Assembly: GCA_022768375.1 (NCBI GenBank)
Contig: JALEMG010000031.1
Span: 1-40,095 of the forward strand
Source: Lentisphaeria bacterium
GTDB lineage: Bacteria > Verrucomicrobiota > Lentisphaeria > Victivallales > Victivallaceae
Direction of reading: 5' to 3'
DNA length: 40,095 bases
Part shown: positions 4,626-32,145 of the stretch, one piece after another
Numbering within the stretch: position 1 is the stretch's first letter
Layout: each line of letters begins with the position of its first letter
Program-made: the position numbers and the translations under genes
The notes under the pieces: generated by a model
Database searches by the model: none
Seen by the model: only the letters and a program-made list of their open reading frames with translations
Told to the model about the DNA's origin: nothing

Positions 4626-4659
4626 TTGAAAAATAGATTTGCATGTGATAGATTATAAT
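4626..4659 (+). promoter_or_regulatory. Likely promoter of the truncated symporter
   Basis: A consensus TATAAT lies at 4654-4659, in a very AT-rich stretch. A TTGAAA at 4626-4631 pairs at 17 bases with an overlapping TAGATT (4649-4654) rather than with TATAAT. The ATG with AAAGGAG follows at 4696. Confidence 0.35.
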
Positions 4660-16182: not shown

Positions 16183-16233
16183 ATGCTTTTTGCGTGTCGG
16201 GATCAGACAAACCGGGGCAGCGTCTCGGAGTAA
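16183..16233 (+). other. Orphan start region: strong SD plus 16-codon ORF
   Basis: AAGGAGG lies 5 bases before an ATG at 16183, with a TACAAT hexamer at 16161-16166 upstream. The frame (MLFACRDQTNRGSVSE) stops after 16 codons inside the 3' end of the esterase gene on the other strand. It may be the surviving front of a lost gene, divergent from the beta-helix gene as the AraC gene is from GH2. It may equally be a short peptide or chance. Confidence 0.3.
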
Positions 16234-18050
16234 AGCAGTTCGCTTTGCTCATCCAACGGGTCCGCCGGGTCGATGAACCGCAGACAGAACCCCCAGGAGT
16301 TCCCCGCCTTGCCGCTCAGCCCGATGATGAATTCATGCCGCCCCGCCGCCAGTTCGAGCGGGATGGAGAACTCGTCCCGGACGATGGGATTGGCCACTTC
16401 GGGGTATCCGGCGGCCTCCCGCCCGTCGCAAAACAGCCGGAACGGAGTGTCCGAACCGATCAGGGCGACGCACCGGACCGCCTGCCGACAGGAGACATGC
16501 CACCGGCAGAAACGCACATACGGCCCCTGCCCGACGACCCGCTCGGGCGAAAGATAATAATTTGTGGAGGTACAGCGGGTCATTTCGACCTTCGCCAGTT
16601 GCTCCGCGTCCGGGCACAACGACGCGAAATCGTCCCGCCCCATCAGCGGCGGAGAGACTTCCACCCGCGACAGCATCGGCGTACTGCGGAAAAGCGGCCG
16701 GAAGAACCGCGGCCCGAACGCGGGCAGCCCGCGTCCGGCCTCGTCGCGGATGTTGACGGCGGGACCGCAGCCGAAACCGTAGGCGATCTTTTCTCCGATC
16801 TCGCCCCCGACGGAAAGAACCGCGCTTTTGCCGTGCAGTTGACAGCGGAACGGCGGCACCGACGGCCGACTGTCCGCCCCGGAGTGGTGCAGAGAAAACC
16901 CCAGCGGCAGCGCCCCGCCGCTGTGCAGTTTGCCCGCCACATTGCGGAAATTCACCGTGATCCGGTACTCGCCGTACTCCTTCACCCACCGGAAACGGAT
17001 CGACCCCAGCGCGATCGGCGGCAGCGCTTCGCGGTCGCCGCGCAGATGCGCCATCGCTCCGGCCAGCCGGACTCCCAGTTGCCGCTGCCCCTCGCCGCTT
17101 AAATGGATATGATCGTCATTCTCCAGATCGATCGCCGGGACCACCGCCAAATGCGGCAGATGCTCCGGCAGTCGCCGCTGGATCTCCCGGATCCGGCTCC
17201 ACCACGCCTCCTGTTCCGGAGCGTATTCGACCATCGTCCGCCCCAACTGCACCGCCGCGATGGGCAGTTTCCGGTCCCGGAAGTCCCGCCGCATCGCCTG
17301 AAACAGTTCGATTGTTCGCCGTTCGTATTCGTCCACGCGCTCCGCGCACGCGTCGTTGCACCCCTGATACCACAGCACTCCGGCCAGTTTGCCGCCGTTG
17401 CGCAGAAAACGCCGATACATCGCGCCGTAAAGGGAGTTTTCCCCCTGATCCCGCAGCGCGGGGTCCCACTGCGTCATCGCGGTCCCGCCGTGAGCCGAAG
17501 CGATCAACCCCTGCGGCACACGGGTGCGTTTCCACATTTCCCGCGCGAAAAAGATTCCCGGCCCCACCCCCTTCACCGGTTCCGGCGCGTTGTCGAACGC
17601 GTGATGCCCACCGTTGATGACCCAATGGACCTCGGCTTCGGCCCGGCGCATGTCGTGCATGATCTCCCGGGCAACGTCCCAATGATCGTCCATATAAAAG
17701 GCGCGGACCTGACGCACCGGTTCGGGCGCGCCGTACAGATTGCCGTACCCCTGCATATTCGACTGCCCCGCCAGCATCCACACGTCGCCGACCCAGAGGT
17801 CGCGGAACTTCAACTCGCCGACGCCGTCGGTCAACGTGAGCGCGTAAGGTCCGCCGGCGCGCCAGCAACTCAACGTCCCGTGAAACGCCCCCCGCCCGTC
17901 GGCCCGGGCGGAGAAAACTTCGCGTCCCTTCCCGTCGACGCCGGTAATCTTGCTTCGCGGCGCGGCGAACCCGGCAACCGCCTGATGACAGAAGTTCCGC
18001 GCATCGCGCTGCATGACCATGTGTTCCCAGAGACCGCCGTTGATTTCCAT
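16203..18050 (-). CDS. Sialate O-acetylesterase-like SGNH hydrolase
   Basis: A 615-residue protein of the SASA/SGNH esterase family. The catalytic serine motif AGQSNMQG places S97, the middle block WYQGCND is at 227-233, and the catalytic pair is in DDHIHLS (D313 and H316, the DxxH motif). The ~90-residue N-terminal and ~280-residue C-terminal parts are beta-rich. Family members remove O-acetyl groups from sialic acids or from plant polysaccharides such as xylan. No signal peptide is visible, so it may act inside the cell. The start at 18050 has only a modest SD (GGGAGCG). A promoter lies upstream. The sialidase-like gene 3.5 kb away favours a sialic-acid role, but the substrate is inferred. 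Confidence 0.87.
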   Translation of the reverse strand: MEINGGLWEHMVMQRDARNFCHQAVAGFAAPRSKITGVDGKGREVFSARADGRGAFHGTLSCWRAGGPYALTLTDGVGELKFRDLWVGDVWMLAGQSNMQGYGNLYGAPEPVRQVRAFYMDDHWDVAREIMHDMRRAEAEVHWVINGGHHAFDNAPEPVKGVGPGIFFAREMWKRTRVPQGLIASAHGGTAMTQWDPALRDQGENSLYGAMYRRFLRNGGKLAGVLWYQGCNDACAERVDEYERRTIELFQAMRRDFRDRKLPIAAVQLGRTMVEYAPEQEAWWSRIREIQRRLPEHLPHLAVVPAIDLENDDHIHLSGEGQRQLGVRLAGAMAHLRGDREALPPIALGSIRFRWVKEYGEYRITVNFRNVAGKLHSGGALPLGFSLHHSGADSRPSVPPFRCQLHGKSAVLSVGGEIGEKIAYGFGCGPAVNIRDEAGRGLPAFGPRFFRPLFRSTPMLSRVEVSPPLMGRDDFASLCPDAEQLAKVEMTRCTSTNYYLSPERVVGQGPYVRFCRWHVSCRQAVRCVALIGSDTPFRLFCDGREAAGYPEVANPIVRDEFSIPLELAAGRHEFIIGLSGKAGNSWGFCLRFIDPADPLDEQSELLYSETLPRFV

Positions 18051-18150: not shown

Positions 18151-20103
18151 TCAGTCGGAGGCACTTTCGGCGTCATGAAATTTCCGCCCGTCCCGGTGGG
18201 TGAGGCCCAACTCCCGGATCTCCCGCTTCAGCGGTTCCGGGACGGGATGTTCCGGGCGGCCGTTTTCATCGAAGTTGACCCAGCAGTCCTCGGTCTCGTT
18301 GCCGCACACTCCCACCGGGCGCATGAAGTGATACGCTTCGGCGCGGCGGGGATAATGGGCGTTGGGCAGCGGCAGGGTCACGCCCCGGCGCATGGCGGAC
18401 TTCAATTCGTCCAGGTGGTGCAGATAGATGTCCCGCGGCGCGGCGTTGTGCCGGATGCAGAGCGCCGCGGCCATGCCCGCCACCTCCCCCAGCATGCCCA
18501 AAGTACGCATGACCCGGATGCAGGAAAACGCCACGTGGCTGACGCTCAAAATCCGTCCGCCGAGAAAGAGATTGTCCATATCCCGGGCGTAAAGACAGCG
18601 GTAGGGGACCGGATAGGGGGCCTTCAAACCCAGATGGTAGGCGCAGGACTGAAAGGCTTCTCCGAAAATCCGGCGGTTCTCCGGGTCGGGGTAGTGCAGA
18701 TCGATGCTCCAGGTGGCGCACCCGGTGCCGTCCGGGTAACGCACCTGCTCCTCGATGTCGTTCTGGGTCAGGATCAGATCGCCGACGACCCGGCAACTCT
18801 CCCGCTTGCCGCCGATGGCGGAGACCCATTCCAAATCCATGTCGGCCCACTTCGCCCGTTCCGGGGAACGGTTCTTCCAGAACGACCAGTTGGCGTAGCA
18901 GGTCATCAGTCCGTAGTCGCGGATGGATTCGATCTCCCGGATCTGGTCGCGGAACTGCCCGGTCTCCCAATCCCAGCAGCAGTTGAACCGGGCCAGCGCG
19001 TTGCCGGAGTGGAATTCGATTCCCCAGTCGATGTCCGGGAACGCCGTCGGATGGGCGAGTTTCCGCGTTTCCCAGAGGGTCGAGTGCCCCATGACCAGCG
19101 CCTGATCCTCCTCCGGGGCCAGCGCTTCGTGAAACCGGGCTTTGCCCTCGCATCCGTACATGATCTCACATCCGGTCCGGCGCGCCAGCAGCGCGTCTCC
19201 GGTACAGTCGGAGAAAAGTTTTCCCCGGCGGCGGGTGACGACGCCGGTCCGGACGGAAAGCGTGAGCACGGCGGCGATCCGGCGGGGATCGTCCGGCACG
19301 GTCTCCACGGCGATGGCCGCTTCGTTGAGCAGCAGTTCTCCGGGAGAAAAGGCGGCGGCCTTGCGGTGATCCTCGAAATATTCCGCTTTTTTCGGATCTC
19401 CGGGCGAACCGTACAGCGGGCTGATGGCTCCGGCGACGGCCCCGAGCCGGGGATATTCTCCCAACCGGACCATGCCGCCGGTCCAGACCCGCACTTCCGA
19501 ACTGCCGCATCCGCCGGGGACCGGCCGGTCGTGCACGACCAGCACCTTCAAACCGGAATACTTCGCCGCCAGCGCCGTGCACAGTCCGGCGTACCCGCCG
19601 CCGCAGACGACAAGATCGTATTCCGCCGGGTCGTCGACCACCCGGCGGCGCCGCGCCCGGAATTCGTCGAGCGCCGCGCCGGCCGGCGGCGTATCCGCCG
19701 GGTCGTCGCTCAGAAACACCGCGCCGCATCGACCGTCGAAACCGGTGAGGTCATGCAGGGCAAGCCGATGTTCCCCCGCGGTCAACTCCGCGTTTCCGGC
19801 GTACTGCCACGCCCACGCTTCTCCGGCGGTTCCCAGCGTCTCCGGCAGTTCCCGGGCGTCCACGGCGATGCGGAACCGCCCCGCCGGGGTCCCCCGGCCC
19901 CAGACCGCGGTCCAGTCCCGCGTGTACGCCCAAACATGCCACCGCCCCGGCCGGGGCACGGAAAATTCCGTCTCCGCGTCGGCCACGGGACGGCCGATCC
20001 CGTGAGCAAGCAGATACGCCGCGCCCAGCGTTTCCAAACTCTGGGTATCCACGGTCCAGCCGCCGATCGACCGGAATTCCGCCGCCTCAAGAAACATGTG
20101 CAT
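18151..20103 (-). CDS. FAD-dependent oxidoreductase with extra N-terminal domain
   Basis: A 650-residue protein. Residues ~160-600 are an FAD_oxidored-type flavoprotein. The dinucleotide-binding segment YDLVVCGGGYAGLCTALAA has its glycine motif at 168-173. LFSDCTGDALLARRTG and, near the C-terminus, MDNLFLGGRILSVSHVAF follow, the usual flavin-contacting regions of this family. The first ~150 residues are a separate beta-rich domain (FSVPRPGRWHVWAYTRDW, LTAGEHRLALHDL), resembling the accessory domains that accompany such oxidoreductases in carbohydrate clusters. No signal peptide is seen. It begins 19 bases after the SDR stop, so it is the second gene of that operon. An in-frame ATG two codons later is equally possible and the SD is weak. 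The substrate is unknown; sugar oxidation is a reasonable guess. Confidence 0.87.
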   Translation of the reverse strand: MHMFLEAAEFRSIGGWTVDTQSLETLGAAYLLAHGIGRPVADAETEFSVPRPGRWHVWAYTRDWTAVWGRGTPAGRFRIAVDARELPETLGTAGEAWAWQYAGNAELTAGEHRLALHDLTGFDGRCGAVFLSDDPADTPPAGAALDEFRARRRRVVDDPAEYDLVVCGGGYAGLCTALAAKYSGLKVLVVHDRPVPGGCGSSEVRVWTGGMVRLGEYPRLGAVAGAISPLYGSPGDPKKAEYFEDHRKAAAFSPGELLLNEAAIAVETVPDDPRRIAAVLTLSVRTGVVTRRRGKLFSDCTGDALLARRTGCEIMYGCEGKARFHEALAPEEDQALVMGHSTLWETRKLAHPTAFPDIDWGIEFHSGNALARFNCCWDWETGQFRDQIREIESIRDYGLMTCYANWSFWKNRSPERAKWADMDLEWVSAIGGKRESCRVVGDLILTQNDIEEQVRYPDGTGCATWSIDLHYPDPENRRIFGEAFQSCAYHLGLKAPYPVPYRCLYARDMDNLFLGGRILSVSHVAFSCIRVMRTLGMLGEVAGMAAALCIRHNAAPRDIYLHHLDELKSAMRRGVTLPLPNAHYPRRAEAYHFMRPVGVCGNETEDCWVNFDENGRPEHPVPEPLKREIRELGLTHRDGRKFHDAESASD

Positions 20104-20122: not shown

Positions 20123-20842
20123 TCACATCGGGCAGATGTCCTGGATCATCGGCATGATCGTCACATCGGGAATCGCCAGATGATCCGGGGTTTCCAAAAT
20201 TTCCCGGACGAGAACGCCCAACTCCTCCGGCGAAGTGCACTGCGCCGCTTTTTCGGCGTCTTCCGAAGCACCGGCGATCCCGGCGGCCCGGTTAAATCCG
20301 GTCTGTCCCCACGACGGCGTGAGACAGGTCACCCGGACGCCGAACGGCCGCAGTTCGGTGTAAAGCCCGTGACTGAACTTCGCCAGCCCGGCCTTGGCGG
20401 CGGTGTAAACGCTCCACGCCGGCCATGCGTACAGCGCGCAGACGCTGGAGATGTTGATGATGGTGCCGCTTCTCCTCGCGGTCATGATCCTGGCGGCCCG
20501 GACGCACCCGAGAATGGCGCCGGTGAGATTGGTGTTGATCGCGGCGGCGATGTCGGCGTCGCACTGTTCCGCCACCGGCTTGAGCACTCCGCCGGCGCCG
20601 GCGTTGTTGACCAGCACGTCCAGATCCCCGATCTCCGCAAACACCCGGTCCCAGTCGGCGCCGCTGGTGACATCGGCTTCCATGGCGTGAGCCCCGATCC
20701 CGGCGGCGGCGCGATTCAGTTTTTCCGCGTTGCGGCCGGTGATCCACACCTCCGCCCCGGCGCGTTTCAGCACGGCGGAAATTCCCTGTCCGTAACCGCC
20801 GCCGCCGCCGGTGACCAGCACTTTTTTCCCTTTAAGTTCCAT
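20123..20842 (-). CDS. Short-chain dehydrogenase/reductase (SDR)
   Basis: A 239-residue classical SDR that oxidises or reduces an alcohol or ketone with NAD(P). The cofactor motif is VTGGGGGYGQG near residues 10-20, then LDVLVNNAGAG, and the catalytic set has S in INISSVCALYAW with Y and K in YTAAKAGLAKF. The start at 20842 is fixed by GGGAGG 6 bases upstream; the frame extends to 21430 only through the non-coding leader. It is the first gene of an operon with the FAD oxidoreductase and lies behind a promoter-leader cassette that is duplicated at 23090-23249. The substrate is unknown. Confidence 0.92.
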   Translation of the reverse strand: MELKGKKVLVTGGGGGYGQGISAVLKRAGAEVWITGRNAEKLNRAAAGIGAHAMEADVTSGADWDRVFAEIGDLDVLVNNAGAGGVLKPVAEQCDADIAAAINTNLTGAILGCVRAARIMTARRSGTIINISSVCALYAWPAWSVYTAAKAGLAKFSHGLYTELRPFGVRVTCLTPSWGQTGFNRAAGIAGASEDAEKAAQCTSPEELGVLVREILETPDHLAIPDVTIMPMIQDICPM

Positions 20843-20954
20843 CGTACACCTCCCTGTTCTCCATGATGCGGAACGGTTCGTTCCCGCCCGTAAATCAACA
20901 TTCGCAAAATCGAAATTCCAATCCGGGATCAAAAGGACCCCGCAACTGCGCAAC

Positions 20955-21112
20955 GATTCGCGGCCCGCGTCCGGGCCGGTCCCGAACGCGGCGTCCACAG
21001 TAACCTTACCACAGGAAATTTCGCGTTCCGCCCCCTGCTTTCCGTGAACTATGATAGCCCGGGCATATTCGGATGTCAAGCGGTCCGGGCAAAAAAGTCG
21101 GATTTTTCCGAA
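20955..21112 (-). repeat. Inverted promoter-leader cassette, copy A (drives SDR/FAD operon)
   Basis: This is the inverted copy of the segment at 23090-23249. By my alignment, 59 consecutive bases around the promoter are identical, and about 11 substitutions plus a 2-base length difference in an A run separate the whole copies. It contains an A/T-rich upstream part, a promoter and a conserved leader that can fold into at least two hairpins. The SDR ATG follows about 110 bases after the repeat ends. Confidence 0.85.
21051..21079 (-). promoter_or_regulatory. Promoter of the SDR/FAD operon
   Basis: On the minus strand, a consensus TTGACA (21079-21074), 17 bases, TATCAT (21056-21051). The spacer carries the palindrome GCCCGGGC, extendable to ATAtGCCCGGGCtAT, placed where a repressor would block polymerase. 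It is identical in the second copy. Confidence 0.7.
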
Positions 21113-21145
21113 AAAACCCCGCGGATATCTCATGGCCGGAAAAGC

Positions 21146-21163
21146 AGCCGCTTTTTTGCGGCT
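21146..21163. other. Small hairpin with T6 loop in the SDR-sialidase intergenic region
   Basis: AGCCGC-TTTTTT-GCGGCT is a perfect 6-bp stem. It lies in the 670-base gap 20843-21512, which holds copy A of the cassette, this hairpin, a 9-bp inverted repeat (GTAAAAAAG 21220-21228, CTTTTTTAC 21242-21250) and the sialidase promoter. I see no gene in the gap. Confidence 0.3.
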
Positions 21164-21424
21164 TGTCGATAACATCCTGATAATAATGGTAAAATCAACA
21201 AACAGGAAGATTTTTGGCGGTAAAAAAGTCCTGCATCTTCTCTTTTTTACGCTTTCCCGACCGCAGCGACCGCCACGACGACGGGCATCGGTTCCGCACC
21301 CGCGCGGAAAGCCGCAATATCCCGCTCGCGCGGTTCGATCGCGCCGGGGCCGGAACGGGAGCGGAGAGATCACCCGTTCCTCCCGACAGAGCCGGGAAAA
21401 TTCTCCTTTTCCGGGCAACGGACG

Positions 21425-21453
21425 TTGCATATTGCCGCGCCGCGTTCTATATT
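21425..21453 (+). promoter_or_regulatory. Promoter of the sialidase-like gene
   Basis: TTGCAT (21425-21430), 17 bases, TATATT (21448-21453), 60 bases before the ATG at 21513. It differs from the two cassette promoters that flank it. Confidence 0.5.
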
Positions 21454-21512
21454 AAGGAACGGCGTGAGCGAGGGAACGCGAGCCGATTTTCAATGATTCC
21501 GCGGAGATTTTC

Positions 21513-22964
21513 ATGTTCCAACGTTTGCTTTTCCTGATCATACTGCTGGGAGGATTTGTGATGCATGCGGGCGATGTGCCGGAAAAAACCGTCATCCTGT
21601 CTCCGGACCGGCCGTCCGGAACGACTTTGCCTTTCACCGGTCGGATCGACCGGCTTCCTCCCGGATGCGCGGGGGTGCGGGTGGAGGCGCGGCTCTCCGG
21701 CCCGGCGCAGTCGGACCAGACCGGGGAAGTGGTCCTGCAACTCCATCTGTCCCAGCGAAGCGTCCCGGAGACCTCCGGCGAAGCGGAAGGCATTCACAGC
21801 GCGCCGGTGCGTCTGCCGGCGGGCGGGGGCCGGCATCTGCTGGAATCCTTCGCTCCGGTCGATCCGGCGCTGCCCCTGTTTCTGAAACTCGAACGCCGCG
21901 CCGACGATCCGGCGGATACCGCGAAGGCCCCGGCCCGTCTCGACGCGCTTCTCGTGACGCCGCTCCCCGCGCCCGCGCCGACATGGACGGTGGCGGACGG
22001 TCCGGGGTACAATTCGTGGCCGGTCATTCAGACGCTGGGCGACAAACTGGTCTGCGTCTACAGCCGGGGGAAACGCCATCTGGTGGAGGAGGTCAACCGG
22101 GGAGTCTGCGCCCGGATCTCCGCCGACGGCGGCAGAAGTTGGAGCGAGGAGATCCTCGTCCATAACACGCCCGACTGCGGCGACGTCACCATCGGCAAGG
22201 GCTCGGATGCCGACGGGGGGCTGCTTGTCTGGGTCCGCTGCGTGGGCGAGGGCAAGTGGTATCATGAACTATACCACTGCGCCGACGGGCGGAACTTCAC
22301 CCGGATCGCCGTGCCGGAACTGGATCCGATGCCCATGCAGATCACCGATATTTTCGCCGTTCCGGGCCGGGGACTGATGGCGCTCTGGTTCTCCGGACGG
22401 TATCACGACACGCCCGACCACGCGTGGGGAACGCTGGTCAGCGCCGACAACGGGCGGACGTGGAAACAGCACACCGTCGAGGCGAATCTGGGCAAATTCT
22501 CATGGCCGACCGAACCGTCGGCAGTATATCTGGGCGACGGAAAAATTCTGGCGATCGCCCGCAGCGAGGATTGCGGAGGAACGACGGAAAACGCTCAATT
22601 TCAACTGGAATCGTCGGATTACGGGGCCACGTGGACCAAGCGCCGCACCAATATTACCGACGTTTACGCCTCCACGCCGAGTTTGATTCTCGACCCGGAA
22701 TCCGGACTGCTGCACTGTTACTATTTTCAGCGGGGACGCGGATTGCTCCAGCGGCGCACGGTCCGGCCCGAAAAGATTCTGGGCCGTCCGCTGCACTGGC
22801 CGGAACCGGAAACGATCGCTCTGGGCAGCGCCGATTTCCACCACGCCGGAAACGTCAACGCCGTCGCCGCCGGGCGACGGCATTTCGCGGCTTTTTACAC
22901 CGGTCACGAGACCGCAACATCCGTCGTCGTGGCGGTCGTTGCGGTCAGGAAAGACGAAAAATAA
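21513..22964 (+). CDS. Secreted sialidase-like BNR/Asp-box protein
   Basis: A 483-residue protein with a hydrophobic signal peptide (MFQRLLFLIILLGGFVMHAG). Residues ~165-480 look like a six-bladed sialidase propeller with Asp boxes at SADGGRSW (203-210), SADNGRTW (310-317) and SSDYGATW (367-374), plus a degenerate one near 256. Further landmarks of exo-sialidases and relatives are VCVYSRGK, WPTEPSAV (possible catalytic glutamate E334 or nearby) and STPSLIL. The first ~140 residues after the signal form a beta-sandwich-like domain. It would release terminal sialic acids from glycoconjugates outside the cell. Not every Asp-box protein is a sialidase, so the activity is probable, not proven. GGAG precedes the ATG. 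The gene sits alone between two outward-facing copies of a promoter cassette. Confidence 0.82.
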   Translation: MFQRLLFLIILLGGFVMHAGDVPEKTVILSPDRPSGTTLPFTGRIDRLPPGCAGVRVEARLSGPAQSDQTGEVVLQLHLSQRSVPETSGEAEGIHSAPVRLPAGGGRHLLESFAPVDPALPLFLKLERRADDPADTAKAPARLDALLVTPLPAPAPTWTVADGPGYNSWPVIQTLGDKLVCVYSRGKRHLVEEVNRGVCARISADGGRSWSEEILVHNTPDCGDVTIGKGSDADGGLLVWVRCVGEGKWYHELYHCADGRNFTRIAVPELDPMPMQITDIFAVPGRGLMALWFSGRYHDTPDHAWGTLVSADNGRTWKQHTVEANLGKFSWPTEPSAVYLGDGKILAIARSEDCGGTTENAQFQLESSDYGATWTKRRTNITDVYASTPSLILDPESGLLHCYYFQRGRGLLQRRTVRPEKILGRPLHWPEPETIALGSADFHHAGNVNAVAAGRRHFAAFYTGHETATSVVVAVVAVRKDEK

Positions 22965-23042
22965 ATATTTTCACCCATTTTCGCCCGCAAAAAACTGCCG
23001 TTTTTCCTCTTTTTCCGTTATTGACAATCACTTATCTGAATG

Positions 23043-23083
23043 CCGGTTCGGACGGCCCGTTTTTTCCGGGCGTTCCGATCCGG
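23043..23083 (+). terminator. Long imperfect hairpin with T-rich loop after the sialidase gene
   Basis: About 14 base pairs with three mismatched positions close a loop containing TTTTTT. The arms run 23043-23059 and 23067-23083. Just downstream, TCGGA/TCCGA followed by CTTTTTT (23091-23112) forms a short terminator-like hairpin. Together they probably end the sialidase transcript and insulate the next promoter. Confidence 0.45.
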
Positions 23084-23089
23084 CCTTTC

Positions 23090-23249
23090 TTCGGAAAAAA
23101 ATCCGACTTTTTTGCCCGGACCGCTTGACATCCGAATATGCCCGGGCTATCATAGTTCACAGAAACCAGGGGGCGGAACGCGAAATTCCCGGTGGTAAGG
23201 TCACCGCGGACGCCGCGTCCGGGACCGGCCCGGGAGCGGGCCGCGGATC
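23090..23249 (+). repeat. Promoter-leader cassette, copy B (drives the 1190-residue-protein operon)
   Basis: This is the second copy of the segment at 20955-21112, in the opposite orientation. The leader part has two hairpins that keep their pairing between copies. GGACG-CCG-CGTCC (23208-23220) differs by a C-to-T change that gives a G-U pair in copy A. CGGCCCG-GGAG-CGGGCCG (23226-23243) differs only in its loop. The 348-base gap 22965-23312 holds this element and the preceding hairpins; I see no gene in it. Confidence 0.85.
23125..23153 (+). promoter_or_regulatory. Promoter of the 1190-residue-protein operon
   Basis: Consensus TTGACA (23125-23130), 17 bases, TATCAT (23148-23153), with GCCCGGGC in the spacer. 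An A/T-rich block about 15-35 bases upstream of the -35 could act as an UP element. The transcript start would be near 23160, giving a ~150-base leader before the ATG at 23313. Confidence 0.7.
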
Positions 23250-23312: not shown

Positions 23313-26300
23313 ATGAAAAAAGTTCTACTGTTCACGCTGAGTTTTCTCGCGCTCGCACTGAGTGCGGAAAACCTGCTCAACGCGCCGAATTTCAGCGACC
23401 GCTTCGGCGGCTTCGGCCCATGGCGGACAAAAGGCGAAAACGCGCTGACCCGGCTGAAAGGTCAGGGGCCGGACGGTGCCGACGCCGTCGCCGTCGATCT
23501 CGCAAAAACCAAATCTCTGCAACAGGGAGGACTGAGACTGGTCGCGGGAGAACGATACCTCATCGGCGGCATGGTCCGGACCAAGGGGTTCTCCGTCAGC
23601 GGAAGATCCGTCCCGACGTTCTACATCATCAACCGGAACTGGGAAAAGGAGGCCAAGGCTCCGGCGATCCCCGCCGACACCAACGGCCAGTGGGTCAAAG
23701 TCGAGCGTGAAGTGCAGGCGCCGGCCAGCAAGGACGGCCTCTACTCTTTCCTCCTCTACTGCGACGGCGGCGCCGGAGAACTGGCGCTGGCGGAAGCATA
23801 CGTCATCCCCGTCTCCGACAAGGCAAAACAGGAATCCTCCCGGGCACCGCAGTGGGATACCGACAATCTGCTGCTGAACGCGGATTTCGTCTCCAAGGAC
23901 CTCGGTCCGTGGCGGGCCGCCGGCGGCGCCGGAGTGGACATACTTGAGGGTCAGGGCATCGGAGAAGTGAACGCGCTGAGACTGGACTTTGCCGGATGCA
24001 GACAGTTCCGTCAGACCAATCTGGAACTCGTCGCCGGGGAACGTTATCTCATCGGCGGCTGGGTCCGCACCTCCAACTTCGTCTCCGGCAAGAACGCCGC
24101 TGCGTTCATCGTCTACAACACCAACTGGGAAAAGGACGTCAAGACCGCCAAGTTCCCCGCCGACACCAAAGGCAAGTGGGTGCGGATCGAGCGGGAGGTG
24201 GTGATGCCGCCAAGCAAGGACGGCAATTATGTTTTCACCATATACGGTGACGGCGCCGCCGGAAATTTTGAAGTCTGCAACCCCTACTTGGTCCCCCTCT
24301 CGAAGGAGGCAAAAAAAAAATCGCGCTCCCCGCGGGAATTCAAAAATCTGATCCGCAACGCTGAATTCATCGGCGACGACAGTCATCTGGATTTCTGGGA
24401 CAGTTACCTCTCCCGGTTCCCCGGCGCGGTGAAACTGCTGCCGGGGGCCGGACCCGACGGCCGGAACGCGATCAAAATCGACATGACCCGGTGCGTCAAT
24501 TTCAGCCAGGCCGGCTTCAAACTGGTGCAGGGAGAGAAGTACCGGGTGGGCGTCTGGATGCGGACCCGCGATTTCGTGGCGAAAAGCAGTCAGGTCGTCA
24601 TCTCCAACCACCTGTGGACCATCGGAGTGGGCACCGGGAACTTCCCCCGGGACACCAACGGCCGCTGGGTCCGCTGGGAGAGAGACGTCACCGCGCAGGA
24701 GAGTAAATCCGGCAAGTACGGCTTCAACATCTACGCGGGGAAGTGCAGCGGAGAGATCGAACTCTGCTATCCCTATCTGATCCCGCTCAGTGAAAAGGCG
24801 GCGGCGGGCGCTTCCGCCGAACCGCTGTGGCAGGAGAATCTGCCCCTGATCGTCCCCTTCCAGCCGATCCTCACCAAAATTTCGCCCGACACCGGGGAAT
24901 TCGAGTGCTGTGTGGTCTATCCCGCCGGAGGACCTTTCACCGACTACGTGTGCCGGTGCAGTTACGCCGGGACGGACGGCAAGTTCGGCGAACCGAAATC
25001 CTTCCCGTTCGACAAGGACGGCCTGAGCAAAGTCGCCATGGGGCCGCTGCCGGAGGGCCCGGGCAAATTCCGTCTGGAGATGGTCCGTAAGAGCGACGGC
25101 AAGGTCATTCTGACGAGCGACTGGTCCATGAACGCGGTCCGCAAGATCCCGATGAGCGGCAAACGGCTCAACAACTTCGTGGTGGAGATTTTCCGCGGAC
25201 CGCTGGAGAATAAGGAGTACACCTTCACCGCGTGGGAGGACGGCTGGTACCGGATCGGCTTCTCCGAACCCCAGCGCAATGCGACGGCCAAACTGGACGG
25301 CGCCGCCGAACCGGTGGTGAGTTTCGCCGAGGATGAGATTTCCGAGACGATGCGCTTCCTCAAGCGCGGCACGCACACCGTCAAGGTGGAGAATGCCGTC
25401 CCCGGCGCGGAACTGATCATCGCCAAGGTCCCGCAACTGCCGGTTTTCGCGTACACGCTCGACGAGCGGAACTACTACGACGGCAACAAGGACGGCAAGA
25501 TCGTCGTCACCGGGTTCCGGGTCGACGGCAACTTCGCCCGCAAGTACCTGTGGCACGCCTTCAACACCTACTTCTTCAACAACGTCTGGAGACCGAAAAC
25601 CGAACTGCAGAAGTGGACCGACGCCGAACTCAAACGCCGCGGCTTCGACATGCAGGCCTGCGACGGTCTGCCCATCGCCGTCTGGAGCGATTACAAGGCC
25701 ATGATCGAGAACGTGAAGAACAACGAGGCGTGGGAAACGACCGAGGGACGCATCCTCGACGAGACCCTGCCGTCGGCGGCCGCGCCGATCCAGGTGGCCA
25801 TGATCCGAATGGCGCACGCGATGCAGGACAGTGAAAAACGCATCCACGTCTGGGAAGACGTGCAGTACATGCCGTACTTCGACTGGCCCACCATCCACCG
25901 GCCGCTGATCGGAGCCTTCTCCAACGCCTCCAAAGGCCGAGGCAAACTGATGCTGGAGACCTACATCCTCTCCACGCCCGACGCCCAGAGCATGGAGGAG
26001 TACTTCGCCAAATTCGTCAAGCAGATGACGGTGGTGAAACAGTACATCAAGGACCCGCAGGAGCGGTTCATGTACTTCATCGGCAACTATCAGACCGCGG
26101 GGGTCTGGTGCGCCAACCGCTACCCGCAGACCGACATGAAGTACTTCTACGACCGGTACATGCAACTGATCGCCACCGACCCGGAATGCGTGGGGCTGGC
26201 CGGATTCGGCTGTTACAGCATCGCGTCCGGCGACGAGGAGATGCAACGCTGGATCTGCAAACTTTTCCGCCACTACTGCATTGAGGGAAAGACCGATCTG

Positions 26301-26885
26301 GTCTCCGATCAGTATGGTTTCAAACTCAATCCGGGATTCATCTCCGGCAATCTGGAGTTCGAGAACGGCTTCGACGGCTGGGACAGCCGTCCGGCGGAGG
26401 AAAATTCCATCGTGCCGCACCGAATCGCGGGGTACGCCCAGAAATACCAGTGCCGCCGGATGAACGGGCTGCCGGGCGGCGACACCTGCGCGCTCTTTAC
26501 CCGCAGCGCCAAAGGTCCCAACAAACTCTCCCGCCGGATCACCGGGCTCACTCCGGGCAAGACCTACAATCTGCTCTACATGACCGCGGACCCGGCCGAC
26601 ATCGAGGGCAAGTCCTTCGAGCGGGACAAGAAAATCGTTTTCGACGCGACATTCGACGGCGCGACGACGGTGCCCGAGTGGAGTTACGACCGGCGGGCCG
26701 GCGGGAAGCAGTTCCAGAACAATCCGGTCGAGATCCAGACCCGGAAGATCGTCTTCCGCGCCGACAAACCGGAAGTGACCGTGACGTTTTCGGACTGGCT
26801 CAGCGACACCGAACCGGGCGGGCCCATCGGCGGACGTCGGCTGCTGAACTTCGTCAGCGTCACGCCCCATTTTGAGCGGGAATGA
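23313..26885 (+). CDS. Large secreted protein with three tandem carbohydrate-binding-like modules
   Basis: A 1190-residue protein with a signal peptide (MKKVLLFTLSFLALALSA, then EN). Residues ~19-172, ~183-335 and ~344-497 are three copies of one ~150-residue module resembling CBM4/9-type jelly rolls. Each has NLLNAPNF-like starts, GERYLIGGWVRT, NxNWEK, PADTNGxWVxxEREV and a closing xAYxIPLS. A fibronectin-like region and a central domain (~650-1010; YDGNKDGKIVVTG, HVWEDVQYMPYFDWP, MYFIGNYQ) follow, possibly a TIM-barrel hydrolase, though I cannot name its family. The last ~170 residues form another jelly-roll module (GNLEFENGFDGWDSRP). AAAGGGTGAG precedes the ATG. It is the first gene of an operon with the next two; codon use matches its neighbours. 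It probably binds and processes polysaccharide outside the cell. Confidence 0.87.
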   Translation: MKKVLLFTLSFLALALSAENLLNAPNFSDRFGGFGPWRTKGENALTRLKGQGPDGADAVAVDLAKTKSLQQGGLRLVAGERYLIGGMVRTKGFSVSGRSVPTFYIINRNWEKEAKAPAIPADTNGQWVKVEREVQAPASKDGLYSFLLYCDGGAGELALAEAYVIPVSDKAKQESSRAPQWDTDNLLLNADFVSKDLGPWRAAGGAGVDILEGQGIGEVNALRLDFAGCRQFRQTNLELVAGERYLIGGWVRTSNFVSGKNAAAFIVYNTNWEKDVKTAKFPADTKGKWVRIEREVVMPPSKDGNYVFTIYGDGAAGNFEVCNPYLVPLSKEAKKKSRSPREFKNLIRNAEFIGDDSHLDFWDSYLSRFPGAVKLLPGAGPDGRNAIKIDMTRCVNFSQAGFKLVQGEKYRVGVWMRTRDFVAKSSQVVISNHLWTIGVGTGNFPRDTNGRWVRWERDVTAQESKSGKYGFNIYAGKCSGEIELCYPYLIPLSEKAAAGASAEPLWQENLPLIVPFQPILTKISPDTGEFECCVVYPAGGPFTDYVCRCSYAGTDGKFGEPKSFPFDKDGLSKVAMGPLPEGPGKFRLEMVRKSDGKVILTSDWSMNAVRKIPMSGKRLNNFVVEIFRGPLENKEYTFTAWEDGWYRIGFSEPQRNATAKLDGAAEPVVSFAEDEISETMRFLKRGTHTVKVENAVPGAELIIAKVPQLPVFAYTLDERNYYDGNKDGKIVVTGFRVDGNFARKYLWHAFNTYFFNNVWRPKTELQKWTDAELKRRGFDMQACDGLPIAVWSDYKAMIENVKNNEAWETTEGRILDETLPSAAAPIQVAMIRMAHAMQDSEKRIHVWEDVQYMPYFDWPTIHRPLIGAFSNASKGRGKLMLETYILSTPDAQSMEEYFAKFVKQMTVVKQYIKDPQERFMYFIGNYQTAGVWCANRYPQTDMKYFYDRYMQLIATDPECVGLAGFGCYSIASGDEEMQRWICKLFRHYCIEGKTDLVSDQYGFKLNPGFISGNLEFENGFDGWDSRPAEENSIVPHRIAGYAQKYQCRRMNGLPGGDTCALFTRSAKGPNKLSRRITGLTPGKTYNLLYMTADPADIEGKSFERDKKIVFDATFDGATTVPEWSYDRRAGGKQFQNNPVEIQTRKIVFRADKPEVTVTFSDWLSDTEPGGPIGGRRLLNFVSVTPHFERE

Positions 26886-26936: not shown

Positions 26937-26979
26937 AGTGGGGATGCGGGAGCGTTTGGATTGCGGAGAGATAAGGAAA

Positions 26980-28641
26980 ATGGATGCGGTTTTTGAAGTC
27001 AAAGCGGTAAGTTCGCTGGAGAAAATTTTTGCGCGGCATCGGTGTGACGCCGCACCGATCACCGAATGCCGGGGCGCGGGCGGCGAATTCGCCGCATTCC
27101 AACTGGCGATGAAATCCGATCTCAACTGGTGCGTCCGCATCGAGGCGGAGTCGGAACTCAAACCCTTCATCCGTCTGCGGGAAGTGGGGCTGGTGCCGTG
27201 CGACATCCCGGCCAATGCCAAAGACGACTTCGTGCTGAGTTCGGAGCCGGGGTACTTCCCCGACCCGCTGTGCGAACTGGCCGACGGGGACACCATCCGG
27301 CTCACGCTGGACAACTGGCACGCGGTCTGGGTGACGGTGGCGATCCCGCCGGGATTCCCCGCCGGGAAGTATCCGATCCGGTTTCACTTCTCCATTCCGC
27401 CCATGCCGTGCTTCCCGTGGGAAACGCCGACGCTGGACCGGGATCTGGAAGTGGCGTTTGAAGTGCTCCCCTACGATCTGCCGCCGCAGAAACTTTTGAA
27501 CATCAACTGGTTTCACGCCGACTGCATCATGGAGTTTTATCGGACCGGCGCGTGGACGCCCCGGCACTGGGAACTGCTGGAGCGGTACATGCGCAACATG
27601 TTCGAGCACGGCGGCAATGTTTTGTACACCCCCCTCTGGCCGATCCCGCTGGATGTGGCGGTCGGGCATCGGCGGCCGGACTGCCAGTTGCTGACCGTGA
27701 CGGAGCGGGAGGGGCGATACCGTTTCGACTTCACCCGGCTGGAACAATGGCTGACGCTGGCCCGCGGCATCGGGTTCCGGCATTTCGAGATGACGCATCT
27801 GTTCTCGCAGTGGGGAGTGAAAAGCGCCCCCCGGGTGATCGTCAACGGCGAATCCCGGTTCGGCTGGGAATGCGCGGCCGACGCGCCGGAGTATGCGGCG
27901 TTTCTGCGGGCGCTGCTGCCGGAGTTGACCGCGCTTTTCGACCGGCTCGGCCTGCAGGGCAAAGTGTTCTTTCACATCTCCGACGAGCCGCCGCTCAAAT
28001 TTCTGGGCAACTATCTCCGGGCGGCGGCGCTGGTGCGCCCGCTGCTGGGAGATTACCCCGTCATCGACGCGCTTTCCGACGTGGATTTCTACCGGACCGG
28101 CGCGATCCGGGAACCGATCCCGGCAACGCCCCGATTCGCGGATTTTTCCGCTCTTTCGCTGCCCCGCCGCTGGGTCTACTACTGCGGCGACTACGAGCGG
28201 GGCGTACCCAACCGGCAACTGGGACTGCCGTCCATGCGCAACCGGGTGTTCGGCATTCTTGCCTACGCCGAAAAAATCGACGGATTTCTGCAGTGGGGAT
28301 ACAATTTCTGGTTCAGCCAGAATTCGCTGGACTGGCATCCCGATGTCTGGCGCGACCCGACTTGCGGCCGGGGCTTCAGCGGCGGCGGCGCATTCAACGT
28401 CTATCCCGGACCGGACGGACCGGTGGACTCTCTGCACTACGAGGTGTTCCGCGAGGGACTGCAAGATCTGCGGGTCTGCCAACTGCTGGAATCCCGGATC
28501 GGTCGGGACGGGGTCATGGCGCTGCTGCAAAAGGATTTGGAAAAACCGCTGGCGCTGGACTGCTATCCCCGTTCCGCCGAATGGCTGCTGGCGGTCCGGC
28601 GGAGACTGGACGACGCGCTGGCGCAAAGCGGAGGGAAGTGA
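26980..28641 (+). CDS. DUF4091/GH123-like glycoside hydrolase
   Basis: A 553-residue protein matching the DUF4091 (GH123-like) layout. An N-terminal beta-sandwich of ~165 residues includes DNWHAVWVTVAIPPGFPAGKY. A TIM-barrel follows with FFHISDEPP, where D335-E336 matches the Asp-Glu pair used by GH123 N-acetylgalactosaminidases. GFLQWGYNFW and VYPGPDGPVDSLHYEVFREGLQDLR are hallmark C-terminal motifs. No signal peptide is visible. The start at 26980 (MDAVFEVK) is chosen for GGAGAGATAAGG upstream; an in-frame ATG at 26944 would add 12 residues. It would cleave beta-linked N-acetylgalactosamine or a related sugar; the specificity is inferred. The stop overlaps the next start by one base (TGATG), so the two are translationally coupled. 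Confidence 0.85.
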   Translation: MDAVFEVKAVSSLEKIFARHRCDAAPITECRGAGGEFAAFQLAMKSDLNWCVRIEAESELKPFIRLREVGLVPCDIPANAKDDFVLSSEPGYFPDPLCELADGDTIRLTLDNWHAVWVTVAIPPGFPAGKYPIRFHFSIPPMPCFPWETPTLDRDLEVAFEVLPYDLPPQKLLNINWFHADCIMEFYRTGAWTPRHWELLERYMRNMFEHGGNVLYTPLWPIPLDVAVGHRRPDCQLLTVTEREGRYRFDFTRLEQWLTLARGIGFRHFEMTHLFSQWGVKSAPRVIVNGESRFGWECAADAPEYAAFLRALLPELTALFDRLGLQGKVFFHISDEPPLKFLGNYLRAAALVRPLLGDYPVIDALSDVDFYRTGAIREPIPATPRFADFSALSLPRRWVYYCGDYERGVPNRQLGLPSMRNRVFGILAYAEKIDGFLQWGYNFWFSQNSLDWHPDVWRDPTCGRGFSGGGAFNVYPGPDGPVDSLHYEVFREGLQDLRVCQLLESRIGRDGVMALLQKDLEKPLALDCYPRSAEWLLAVRRRLDDALAQSGGK

Positions 28642-30779
28642 TGCGCCGCCGTCTCACATCGATTCTGCTGGGCGCGGGAATGTTCGCGGGAGTGCTTTCC
28701 GCGGCGGAACTGCGTCTGGACTGCGGCGATCCGGCTCCGGTCCGGTGCGGCGAGATGAGTTGCGCCGACGGGACGGTCCCGGAGCATCCGCCCGCGTTTG
28801 AAATACAGTTGTTCCCGGAAGAACTGCGCGTCGCGGTGGAGATCCCCCACGCGCCGGACGCACCGCCGGCCGTCGCCGGAACGCGCGGCGGAAGCACGGC
28901 GATTTTCGGCGGGGAAACGGCGGAAGTGATGGTCGCCCCGGACGGGAAGGATTATTTTCACTTCGCCATGAATCCCGAGGGCAGACTCTACGCGGCCCGG
29001 GGACGCGCTCCGCTGCCCGCTCCGGCCGCCGTTACCGGCAAAGCCCGGCGGGGACCGGGGTACTGGCGGGCGGAATTCGCCATTCCCTACCAACTTCTCG
29101 GCGCGGCGCCGCCCCGACCGGGACAGCGCTGGCGTTTCAACGCGATGGCATCGACCGACCGCGGCGGAAAAAAACGGTCGTTCAGTTGGAGCGCGGCAAA
29201 GGACTTCCACGATCCGGCCCGCTTCGGGACGCTTCATTTTGCCGACACGCCGGGGATCGTCCTGCGGCGGCGGCAGGTCCGGAATGAAACGCTGGAGGTC
29301 GAACTCGTCGTCCCGGCGGCGGACGCCGTACCGCAACTTCAACTGGCGGGACACCCGGAACCGGGCCGACGCGACGGCAAACTCTGGCGCTGGCAACTGC
29401 CGATCGGCGGCGACTTCGTCGTCCCCAAATACGCGCTGCCGCTGACCGTGACGGTGAACGACGGGGAGGGGAAAACGATCTTTTCCGCCGCCGCAACGCT
29501 GATCGGGCGCGGACGGCATACGCTGGAGTTGGACAAGTTCTACTACGGCGCGGCGGACAAAACGGCGCGCTTCCGTCACGACTTTCCCCTTCCGGCGCGG
29601 CTGGTCTGCCGCCGGGCGGCAGACGAAACGGTGTGCGTTGACCGGGAGTGCGGCAGCGCCGGAACGATCGATCTGAGCGAACTTGCCCCCGGAGCCAACT
29701 CGGTGGAGATCCATTCCGGCAAACGCCGGACCAGCCGGACGATCTTCATTGCCGGACCGGAATTCATTCTGCCGCCGGCGTCGGAAACGGCGGAACTGGA
29801 GATCGTCGACGGGAAACTGCACGTGGGCGGCGTTCCGGTTTTCGCCGTGGGCGCAAGTTCCACGCCCCGGCCCCGGCCGCAGTTCACGCCCGCATTCAAT
29901 CTGGCGTCGGGGGACTACGCCGTTGCGCCCGACGCCATCGAACTCGAAGGACTGGGCGGAGTGAAACTGATCCGCCGCCCCGGGCTCACCGCGTTCCGCA
30001 TCGGGGCCGACTGGACCGGCCGGGTGGACGCCCATCTGACCCGGATCGCCGGACGGCGCCGGGCGGTGCGGCGGCTGGCCTACGAAGCGCAGTTCCCGCT
30101 GTTTCAGGAGGACGGCGCGGGCGGAGAACGCCCACTGGACCCGCTGAAATTTTATCCCGATCTGTACCGAAAACTGAAAGCCCGCCACCCCCGGCAACTG
30201 CTCTCCATCCACTCCGACGAAAGCGCGGCAATGCCGATCCTCGCCGCCGGATGCGATATTCTGGAATGCGCGTTCTACAGTTCGTCCTTCGCGGAATTCA
30301 TGATGGAACACCTGGAACGCGACGCGCGGCACGCCCGGCACAGCGCGGGCGGCCGTCCGGTCCTGCTGTGGCTGGGCGGTTCCATCCCCGACGCGGAGTG
30401 CCGGCTCGCGGAAGAACTGCGCTGCGCCGCATACTGCGCCATGCTCGAAAATCTCAACGGCGTCATGATCCACATGGGACACGGCGGCATCTCCCCCGAA
30501 AGGACCCGGCTCTGGTCGCTGATCTCCGGGATCGGCCGGGAACTTGCCGCAGTCTATCCCTTTGTCGCCGAAGGGGAAGCGCTGCCGTTCCCCGTCAAAG
30601 ACGTCCCCGACGGCATCCGCCGGGGCGCATGGCGGCGGCACGGCGACATCTGCCTGATCCTGATCAACCGCACCCCGGAGGCCCGGGAGGTGACGCTGGA
30701 TGCCCAATGCGGTCCCGTGCGTGCCCGCCTCACCCCGTGGGAGGCGCGGAGTTACTTCTGGAGAAAAACCGGGAAATGA
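28641..30779 (+). CDS. Secreted protein with CBM9-like domain and unassigned C-terminal domain
   Basis: A 712-residue protein with a signal peptide (MRRRLTSILLGAGMFAGVLSAAE). Residues ~25-205 look like a CBM9-type carbohydrate-binding domain: ETAEVMVAPDGKDYFHFAMNPEGRLY, then WRAEFAIPYQLLG, RWRFNAMASTD and ARFGTLHF. Beta-rich linkers follow to ~400. The last ~300 residues (FYPDLYRKLKARHPRQLLSIHSDESAAMPILAAGCDILECAFYSS) look like a TIM-barrel-type fold ending in a small beta domain (LILINRTPEAREVTL, common after hydrolase barrels). I do not recognise the catalytic family. It starts on TGATG overlapping the previous stop, with GAGGGA as SD, and is the last gene of the operon. Confidence 0.85.
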   Translation: MRRRLTSILLGAGMFAGVLSAAELRLDCGDPAPVRCGEMSCADGTVPEHPPAFEIQLFPEELRVAVEIPHAPDAPPAVAGTRGGSTAIFGGETAEVMVAPDGKDYFHFAMNPEGRLYAARGRAPLPAPAAVTGKARRGPGYWRAEFAIPYQLLGAAPPRPGQRWRFNAMASTDRGGKKRSFSWSAAKDFHDPARFGTLHFADTPGIVLRRRQVRNETLEVELVVPAADAVPQLQLAGHPEPGRRDGKLWRWQLPIGGDFVVPKYALPLTVTVNDGEGKTIFSAAATLIGRGRHTLELDKFYYGAADKTARFRHDFPLPARLVCRRAADETVCVDRECGSAGTIDLSELAPGANSVEIHSGKRRTSRTIFIAGPEFILPPASETAELEIVDGKLHVGGVPVFAVGASSTPRPRPQFTPAFNLASGDYAVAPDAIELEGLGGVKLIRRPGLTAFRIGADWTGRVDAHLTRIAGRRRAVRRLAYEAQFPLFQEDGAGGERPLDPLKFYPDLYRKLKARHPRQLLSIHSDESAAMPILAAGCDILECAFYSSSFAEFMMEHLERDARHARHSAGGRPVLLWLGGSIPDAECRLAEELRCAAYCAMLENLNGVMIHMGHGGISPERTRLWSLISGIGRELAAVYPFVAEGEALPFPVKDVPDGIRRGAWRRHGDICLILINRTPEAREVTLDAQCGPVRARLTPWEARSYFWRKTGK

Positions 30780-30903: not shown

Positions 30904-32145
30904 ATGATGATGAAAAAAATGAAATACGACCTTGATTACGGCAAGTTGTCCATCGACTCCGCGTCGTCCGAGCCGCTGCACATGCAGTTGAAACGGGCGC
31001 TGAAACGGGAGTTGCGCGGACTGATGCCCAACCGTCAGGTGATCCTGATGTCGGAACGAGAATTGGCGTCCATGCTCAAACTCAGCCGTCCGACCGTGCA
31101 CCGGGTCTACGACGAACTGCTGGCCGAGGGGATCGTCAGCCGCAGGCCCGACCGATCGCTGGAGGTGTGTCCGCAGGCCCGGAGCCGGATCGTCGGCAAC
31201 TACCGGGTCATCGGGGTGCTGCTGCCGACCGATTTCCCGACCTTCGTCGACCGGAACAATTCGGTGATGAATTACCTGAAAGGGATCATCGGGCGGGCGT
31301 CCGAACTGAACATCTCCTGCCTGATGCTGCAGCCGCCGACAGGCGAGATCACGGTCGCGGTGCTGGGGGCTTTCGTCGAGGCGCACTTCCCCAAACTCTG
31401 CGGGGTCATCCATCTCGGCGGACTGTACGACGATCCGGGCGAGAACGAAGCGGTCCTGACGTACCTCATGAGCCAGACGGAGATCCCGCAGGTGTGCCTG
31501 TCCGGGGTGTCGTCCTACGGCAACGTCGGCGCGGTCTACGCCGACCCCGCCGTTGGGGTGAGGGAACTATTCACATCCCTGAAATCCAGAAAGATCCACT
31601 CCATCGGCATCGTGGACAGTTACGGCGTGGTCAGAACTCCGGCGGAGGTATTCACCTACATCTCGAACATCCGGATCGAGGCGATGCTGAGAGTCGCCGC
31701 GGAGTGCGGCGTGGAGTGCCGGGTCAGCGTGGGGAAAAACGATTATCAGCAGTGGCTGCATCAGGTGATCGACCTCCTGCAGTCGCCGGACCGCCCGGAG
31801 GTGCTGATCTGCTACAACGACACGGTGGCGCGGACCGTGATGGAACTGGCCCGGCTGCAGGGCATCGCGGTGCCGGACGAGTTGTCGGTGGTCGGTTACG
31901 ACGGCGGCGACCCGGAACTGGCCAGCATCCGCACCAACCAGCAGCAGGTGGCGGAAGCGGCGGTGGAGATGATCGTCGAACACTTCGAACACGGCGTCTC
32001 CGGAAGCAACCGGATCCTGACCCTGCCCACGGAATTCGCGGACGGACGGTCTTTGAGGCGTACCGCCGGAGGCGTGGCCAAAACCCGGCCCCGGAAAAAG
32101 CCGATGAGAATGCAATACTTCAACGAAAGGAGAGATTCGGAATGA
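30904..32145 (+). CDS. GntR-type winged-helix / LacI-type sensor transcriptional regulator
   Basis: A 413-residue regulator of the AraR-like hybrid type. Residues ~20-95 are a GntR winged helix-turn-helix ([16 protein letters not shown], then [33 protein letters not shown]). Residues ~100-385 are a LacI/GalR-type periplasmic-binding-like sensor ([61 protein letters not shown]). Such proteins bind a sugar and leave the operator. The start is uncertain: three consecutive ATG codons (30904, 30907, 30910) and one at 30919 all lack a clear SD. It has its own promoter with a palindromic operator. Its stop overlaps the next ATG in ATGA. Confidence 0.92.

Follow-up and report, generated by a model that had tools for sequence, protein, structure and literature searches.

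Outward-facing twin promoter regions on either side of a sialidase-like gene in a Lentisphaeria bacterium are best read as the products of an inverted segmental duplication that would act as DNA, that is as promoter and operator, with the leader downstream of each promoter being an ordinary 5′ UTR; we give this reading a probability of about 0.7. The window (the whole stretch of 40,095 nucleotides that was analysed) is an entire contig, C7, of a 2.25 Mb genome assembly in 64 contigs that is 94.75% complete. The duplication, its extent, the gradient of identity along it and the contiguity of the genes in relatives can be read directly from the sequence.

A repeat search of the window returned the core of the pair as an inverted repeat (I1, 20955-21107 on the minus strand against 23097-23249 on the plus strand; 153 nt, 93%), and the features in and next to the core are as follows.

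20955..21107, minus strand: core copy 1 (promoter and leader), reading toward the SDR/FAD operon
23097..23249, plus strand: core copy 2 (promoter and leader), reading toward the 1190-aa protein/GH123 operon
21051..21079, minus strand: predicted sigma-70-type promoter of copy 1, TTGACA-N17-TATCAT, 11/12 consensus bases, spacer 17
23125..23153, plus strand: predicted sigma-70-type promoter of copy 2, TTGACA-N17-TATCAT, 11/12 consensus bases, spacer 17
20955..21043, minus strand: leader of copy 1, 89 nt, containing all 11 differences
23161..23249, plus strand: leader of copy 2, 89 nt
21057..21064, no strand: GCCCGGGC palindrome in the −35/−10 spacer of copy 1, candidate operator
23140..23147, no strand: GCCCGGGC palindrome in the −35/−10 spacer of copy 2, candidate operator
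21098..21111, minus strand: terminator-like hairpin then CTTTTTT, upstream of the promoter of copy 1 (such sites are no commoner in the region than expected by chance)
23091..23106, plus strand: terminator-like hairpin then CTTTTTT, upstream of the promoter of copy 2 (likewise not above chance)

The initial annotation had described an inverted, outward-facing pair around the sialidase-like gene, and the pair is real, with TTGACA-N17-TATCAT in each copy and 142 of 153 bases identical in an ungapped alignment. Its ~160-bp element (20955-21112 and 23090-23249) exists as a pair but not with those bounds, as the ungapped core is 153 nt, a two-base indel lies directly outside its inner end, and the duplication is longer. 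Promoter and spacer are identical as had been stated, but the unbroken run is 64 bases rather than 59 and spans both promoters (64/64). None of the 11 core differences falls before the predicted transcript start (~21044 on the minus strand in copy 1, ~23160 on the plus strand in copy 2); all are within the 89-nt leader. The comparison of 0/64 differences in the promoter with 11/89 in the leader gives a Fisher p of 0.0027 when the core is cut at the first difference, and 0.0029 when it is cut one base earlier, at the predicted start. Judged on these two copies, conservation of the promoter is clear and that of the leader is modest.

A shared operator had been proposed in the −35/−10 spacer, and the GCCCGGGC palindrome is indeed present there in both copies, but its count is not enriched in the window (5 against 2.72 expected). 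Alone it is not distinctive, because 13 of 100 shuffles reach at least that count of 5. The hairpin at 23091..23106 on the plus strand may mark the end of the sialidase-like transcript.

Beyond the core, the alignments follow the duplication further inward, across a spacer rich in indels and on to a scar left by the 3′ end of the sialidase-like gene, an extent that had been overlooked in the initial annotation.

22870..22961, plus strand: counterpart of the scar at the 3′ end of the intact sialidase-like gene
21245..21333, minus strand: scar, a decayed copy of that 3′ end, matched at the DNA level only
21108..21244, minus strand: duplicated spacer, arm 1
22962..23096, plus strand: duplicated spacer, arm 2

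A second pair of arms (I2, 21211-21284 and 22921-22994, 73%) lies at nearly equal distance inward from both cores, and a local alignment of the inner flanks (21245-21333 against 22870-22961) scores 64, compared with at most 35 in 2000 shuffles, with 70 of 88 aligned columns identical and 5 gap positions. Because the stretch 22870-22961 forms the sialidase-like gene's 3′ end, copy 1 bears a scar of that gene; the evidence for the scar is confined to the DNA level since tblastn with the sialidase-like protein misses it (best E 0.43). Homology extends to the spacer that separates the scar from the core: its alignment scores 33, where none of 3000 shuffles exceeds 25, and has 89 of 115 aligned columns identical and 40 internal gap positions in 16 events. 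This colinear homology of scar and spacer beyond the core supports a segmental inverted duplication, and the presence of the scar in copy 1 suggests that copy 2 was the donor. On the outer flanks similarity between the arms is not above that of shuffles, the homology stopping abruptly at the outer ends, and against the rest of the window these flanks give short chance words only.

The genes around the pair were assigned to protein families as listed, and NCBIfam gives the genes of the window no better names.

21513..22964, plus strand: BNR/Asp-box (sialidase-like) gene between the copies (PF13088, PF02012)
20123..20842, minus strand: short-chain dehydrogenase (SDR), first gene after copy 1 (PF00106)
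18151..20103, minus strand: FAD-dependent oxidoreductase (FAD_oxidored; PF12831)
16203..18050, minus strand: SASA-type acetylesterase (PF03629), probably of the same operon, judging by the spacing
23313..26885, plus strand: first gene downstream of copy 2, encoding a 1190-aa protein that has a carbohydrate-binding domain (PF02018)
26938..28641, plus strand: GH123 glycoside hydrolase (PF13320)
28638..30779, plus strand: 713-aa protein, third gene, without an NCBIfam match; a relative follows GH123 in genome G003
30904..32145, plus strand: regulator with a GntR-type HTH and a LacI-type sensor domain, candidate regulator of both promoters

The frame of the SDR gene is open upstream through leader and promoter (20123-21430 on the minus strand, 435 aa). 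The leader was considered as a coding stretch and rejected, since by eye most of the differences between the copies would change amino acids in two frames; a start at 20842 is favoured because these differences do not look coding. Elsewhere in the window two very long frames (4653-9554, 1633 aa, and 35443-40011, 1522 aa, both on the minus strand) lie in regions with imperfect repeats of ~31-171 nt, which may belong to large repeat proteins.

Comparison with relatives, which include Lentisphaerae MAGs, indicates that the two operons of the window consist of genes that tend to go together, because the blocks adjoin in other genomes. For example, one strand of G003 carries a 773-aa gene (transporter-like, a name that we assume from its sequence), the SDR and FAD genes, hyd2, hyd1 (G003's two relatives of the 1190-aa protein), GH123 and the relative of the 713-aa protein, and in G031 the FAD gene is directly followed by a relative of the 1190-aa protein. 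In G001, G004 and G020 the SDR-FAD pair is preceded by a gene that we take to be of the IclR type, the best counterpart of which in the window's own genome is a protein of only 22% identity; the best-matching relative of the 1190-aa protein lies on a different contig in both G001 and G020. G010 has a regulator related to the one at 30904-32145 close to its own relative of the 1190-aa protein. Phylogenies of the FAD protein (window, five relatives and two outgroups) and of the 1190-aa protein (window, four sequences of three relatives and one outgroup, leaving out the G031 fragments and more distant relatives) do not settle whether one operon is ancestral; they are compatible with an ancestral single operon without being proof of one.

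The promoters of these blocks in G003 provide an independent case of sharing. A 40-nt box over the −35/−10 region is common to the promoters of the transporter-SDR-FAD block and of hyd1 (locus L085, upstream of 16288 and of 8576, both on the minus strand), a match that ends just past the −10 element and is equalled in 0 of 1000 shuffles. The box is unrelated in sequence to the promoter of the window, and this independent pair argues that promoter DNA can coordinate these blocks. The proposed co-regulation of the SDR/FAD and hydrolase operons is therefore supported by the 64/64 promoter identity ahead of functionally linked operons and by relatives in which the blocks are contiguous or, as in G003, have matching promoters of their own; in G001 and G020 no box is common to the upstream regions of the two blocks. 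As a separate observation, the region upstream of the 1190-aa protein's relative in these two genomes (L090, 5998-6100 on the minus strand, in one and L092, upstream of 6722 on the minus strand, in the other) is identical over at least 59 consecutive bases and contains an inverted repeat, TGCCCCG/CGGGGCA, with a loop of variable length; it occurs once in each of G001 and G020, was not found in the other 32 genus genomes, and the G001 copy has no Rfam match.

The proposed origin can be laid out as a series of steps. A segment made up of the sialidase-like 3′ end, the spacer, a strong sigma-70-type promoter and its 5′ UTR would have been copied across the sialidase-like gene, so that the new copy lies inverted on its opposite side. 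The two copies would then drive divergent operons, SDR-FAD (probably with the acetylesterase) on one side and 1190 aa-GH123-713 aa on the other, both probably serving one glycan-handling (sugar) pathway. Acting as DNA, the copies could place both operons under the same promoter-bound regulator, for which the neighbouring GntR/LacI-type protein is a candidate that may bind the promoter block. The leader is most simply an ordinary 5′ UTR that the two operons share.

Divergence along the arms bears on what has kept the core alike. The leader is 78/89 identical without an indel (~12% differing), the flank differs at ~20-23% of aligned columns and carries indels as well, and the promoter differs at 0/64 positions. 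Substitutions only give no significant difference between leader and flank (p=0.07 for the spacer, 0.16 for the scar and 0.07 for both); once indels are included, the two copies match better in the leader than in the spacer (p=0.0007, a value that rests on one gapped alignment). The freedom of the leader from indels may reflect chance, selection or gene conversion, which are inseparable from one genome. Inverted repeats ~2 kb apart can recombine, and gene conversion between the arms could have kept the core alike, with a leader that has no function of its own. The sharp outer edge of the homology and a core poorer in indels than the spacer are in keeping with such a history, but conversion alone would not lead one to expect a promoter with 0/64 differences beside a leader with 11/89, and it is unlikely to be the explanation.

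An RNA-level function for the leader, which the initial annotation had suggested, has been weighed on several lines of evidence. Under this explanation, which we consider improbable, the leader would be a structured cis-acting RNA of an undescribed class that occurs twice here, and the 78/89 identity without indels beside an indel-rich spacer and the GC-rich hairpins that are predicted in it are what such an RNA would lead one to see. At the gathering score, Rfam gives 0 matches in the whole window (the initial annotation had not recognised the leader as a known riboswitch class), and a permissive Rfam search around the element returned three chance-level matches, one over the promoter of copy 1 and none on the leader. 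The leaders are no more stable than shuffled sequence (z of −1.04 and −0.59, with 26/200 and 56/200 shuffles folding equally well or better), and the predicted folds of the two copies agree mainly in their 3′ half. The claim that changes fall in loops or preserve pairing finds no signal: 26/30 and 25/27 predicted pairs are kept in the other copy, but random placement of the changes equals or beats these numbers in 59% and 45% of trials (300 each, with two sequences and 11 changes). When the two copies are folded jointly, 13% and 21% of the trials with random changes do as well, which leans weakly toward a common structure.

Further copies were sought in several sets of genomes. No third copy was found in the window's own genome (94.75% complete), in which two of the weak short matches were looked at and both lay within long frames. 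A DNA search of 60 genomes, the own one included, returned the two copies together with matches in G052 and G057, which were rejected as extra copies since both lie inside a 408-aa reading frame. Among the matches listed for the 34 genomes of the genus, again with the own one included (E<=1), weak short matches occur in 33/34, the best foreign one reaching 40.1 bits (E 7e-4); 17 of the 19 foreign loci examined (L006-L024) lie inside stop-to-stop frames of at least 100 codons. A structure model (R2) gave one weak match in the 33 other genus genomes (G018, 28.2 bits, E 0.0064 for that genome), rejected as a leader copy because it falls within a 577-aa frame that is open-ended. Across 23 loci surrounding related genes, some of which overlap and two of which are the same contigs repeated, the best other match to the structure model was 15.4 bits (E 0.51), and a sequence model found nothing beyond the two copies. 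The sequence model R1, run with stricter filters on 137 genomes of the order including the own one, gave five weak matches of 17-19 bits in the 136 others, each rejected as overlapped by a frame of at least 100 aa, which is no proof of a gene. Position inside a frame is a weak argument because long frames are common by chance in these GC-rich genomes, and the main argument against the weak matches is their low scores. Sequence shared by the core and six upstream regions of relatives was no better than in shuffles, the genus, order and related-locus searches showed no recurrence upstream of related operons, and a small literature search gave no publication relevant by its title. No convincing further copy was thus seen in the 33 other genus and 136 other order genomes, whose weak matches were examined in part. 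The failure to find additional copies or covariation, as far as the genomes searched and the two sequences allow these to be judged, counts against an RNA leader, as do the absence of an Rfam family and of a folding or pairing signal. A related suggestion, which we regard as quite doubtful, is that the leaders belong to a regulatory RNA specific to this lineage and known from no other copies, which was duplicated with the promoter and provides a second, RNA-level layer of shared control; if true, it would explain the kept length of the leader and its 88% identity beside an indel-rich spacer.

The two remaining foreign loci (2/19 examined, L007 of G001 and L011 of G029) lie outside long frames and share the stretch upstream of the promoter, not the leader. 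Positions 1501-1525 of L007, 1501-1547 of L011 and 23094-23119 of the window have in common an A/T-tract followed by TTTTTTGCCCG; the match is limited to this tract and the GCCCG stretch ahead of the promoter, extending in L011 up to and into the −35 element, and by eye a promoter-like pair follows in both loci. There are 416 sites of TTTTTTGCCCG in the 34 genus genomes, compared with 126 for the reversed control. A promoter-like pair stands downstream of 6 of 40 sites (15 of G026, 14 of G029 and 11 of G001's 12), compared with a mean of 1.42 and a maximum of 4 in shuffles, 3 in upstream stretches and 2 on the other strand; many of the sites seem, by eye, to be coding. The association of TTTTTTGCCCG with promoters is a faint lead.

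That the duplication was kept by chance with a functionless second copy is very improbable: it is seen in this genome only, and its leader and flank substitution rates are compatible, but the promoter has stayed at 0/64 beside the many changes of leader and flank, and the operons that follow the two copies belong to one gene set. The alternative of a recent duplication without function, as first worded, is too simple for a leader that differs by 12% and a flank that differs by ~20-23% with indels next to an unchanged promoter.

Duplicated promoter/operator regions shared by the operons of one local regulon form a general class, which the present case resembles in having two operons with a near-identical promoter and spacer palindrome and a GntR/LacI-type regulator nearby; it differs in that the block here can be traced back to an inverted duplication, of which a scar of the adjacent gene also remains. 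Like the riboswitches and cis-regulatory leaders of Rfam, it has a kept GC-rich 5′ UTR ahead of metabolic operons, but here there is no family, no fold or pairing signal and no convincing further copy. Invertible promoter segments, which underlie phase variation, likewise involve a gene flanked by inverted repeats; in contrast, both promoters here face outward, so that after an inversion each operon would still have an equivalent promoter.

On present evidence the pair adds no new class of RNA, and the twin promoters would represent a tidy and fairly ordinary form of shared control. Their value lies in being a readable example of how an inverted duplication may bring two operons under one promoter, in which the flank, having changed, gives an internal measure of what was kept.
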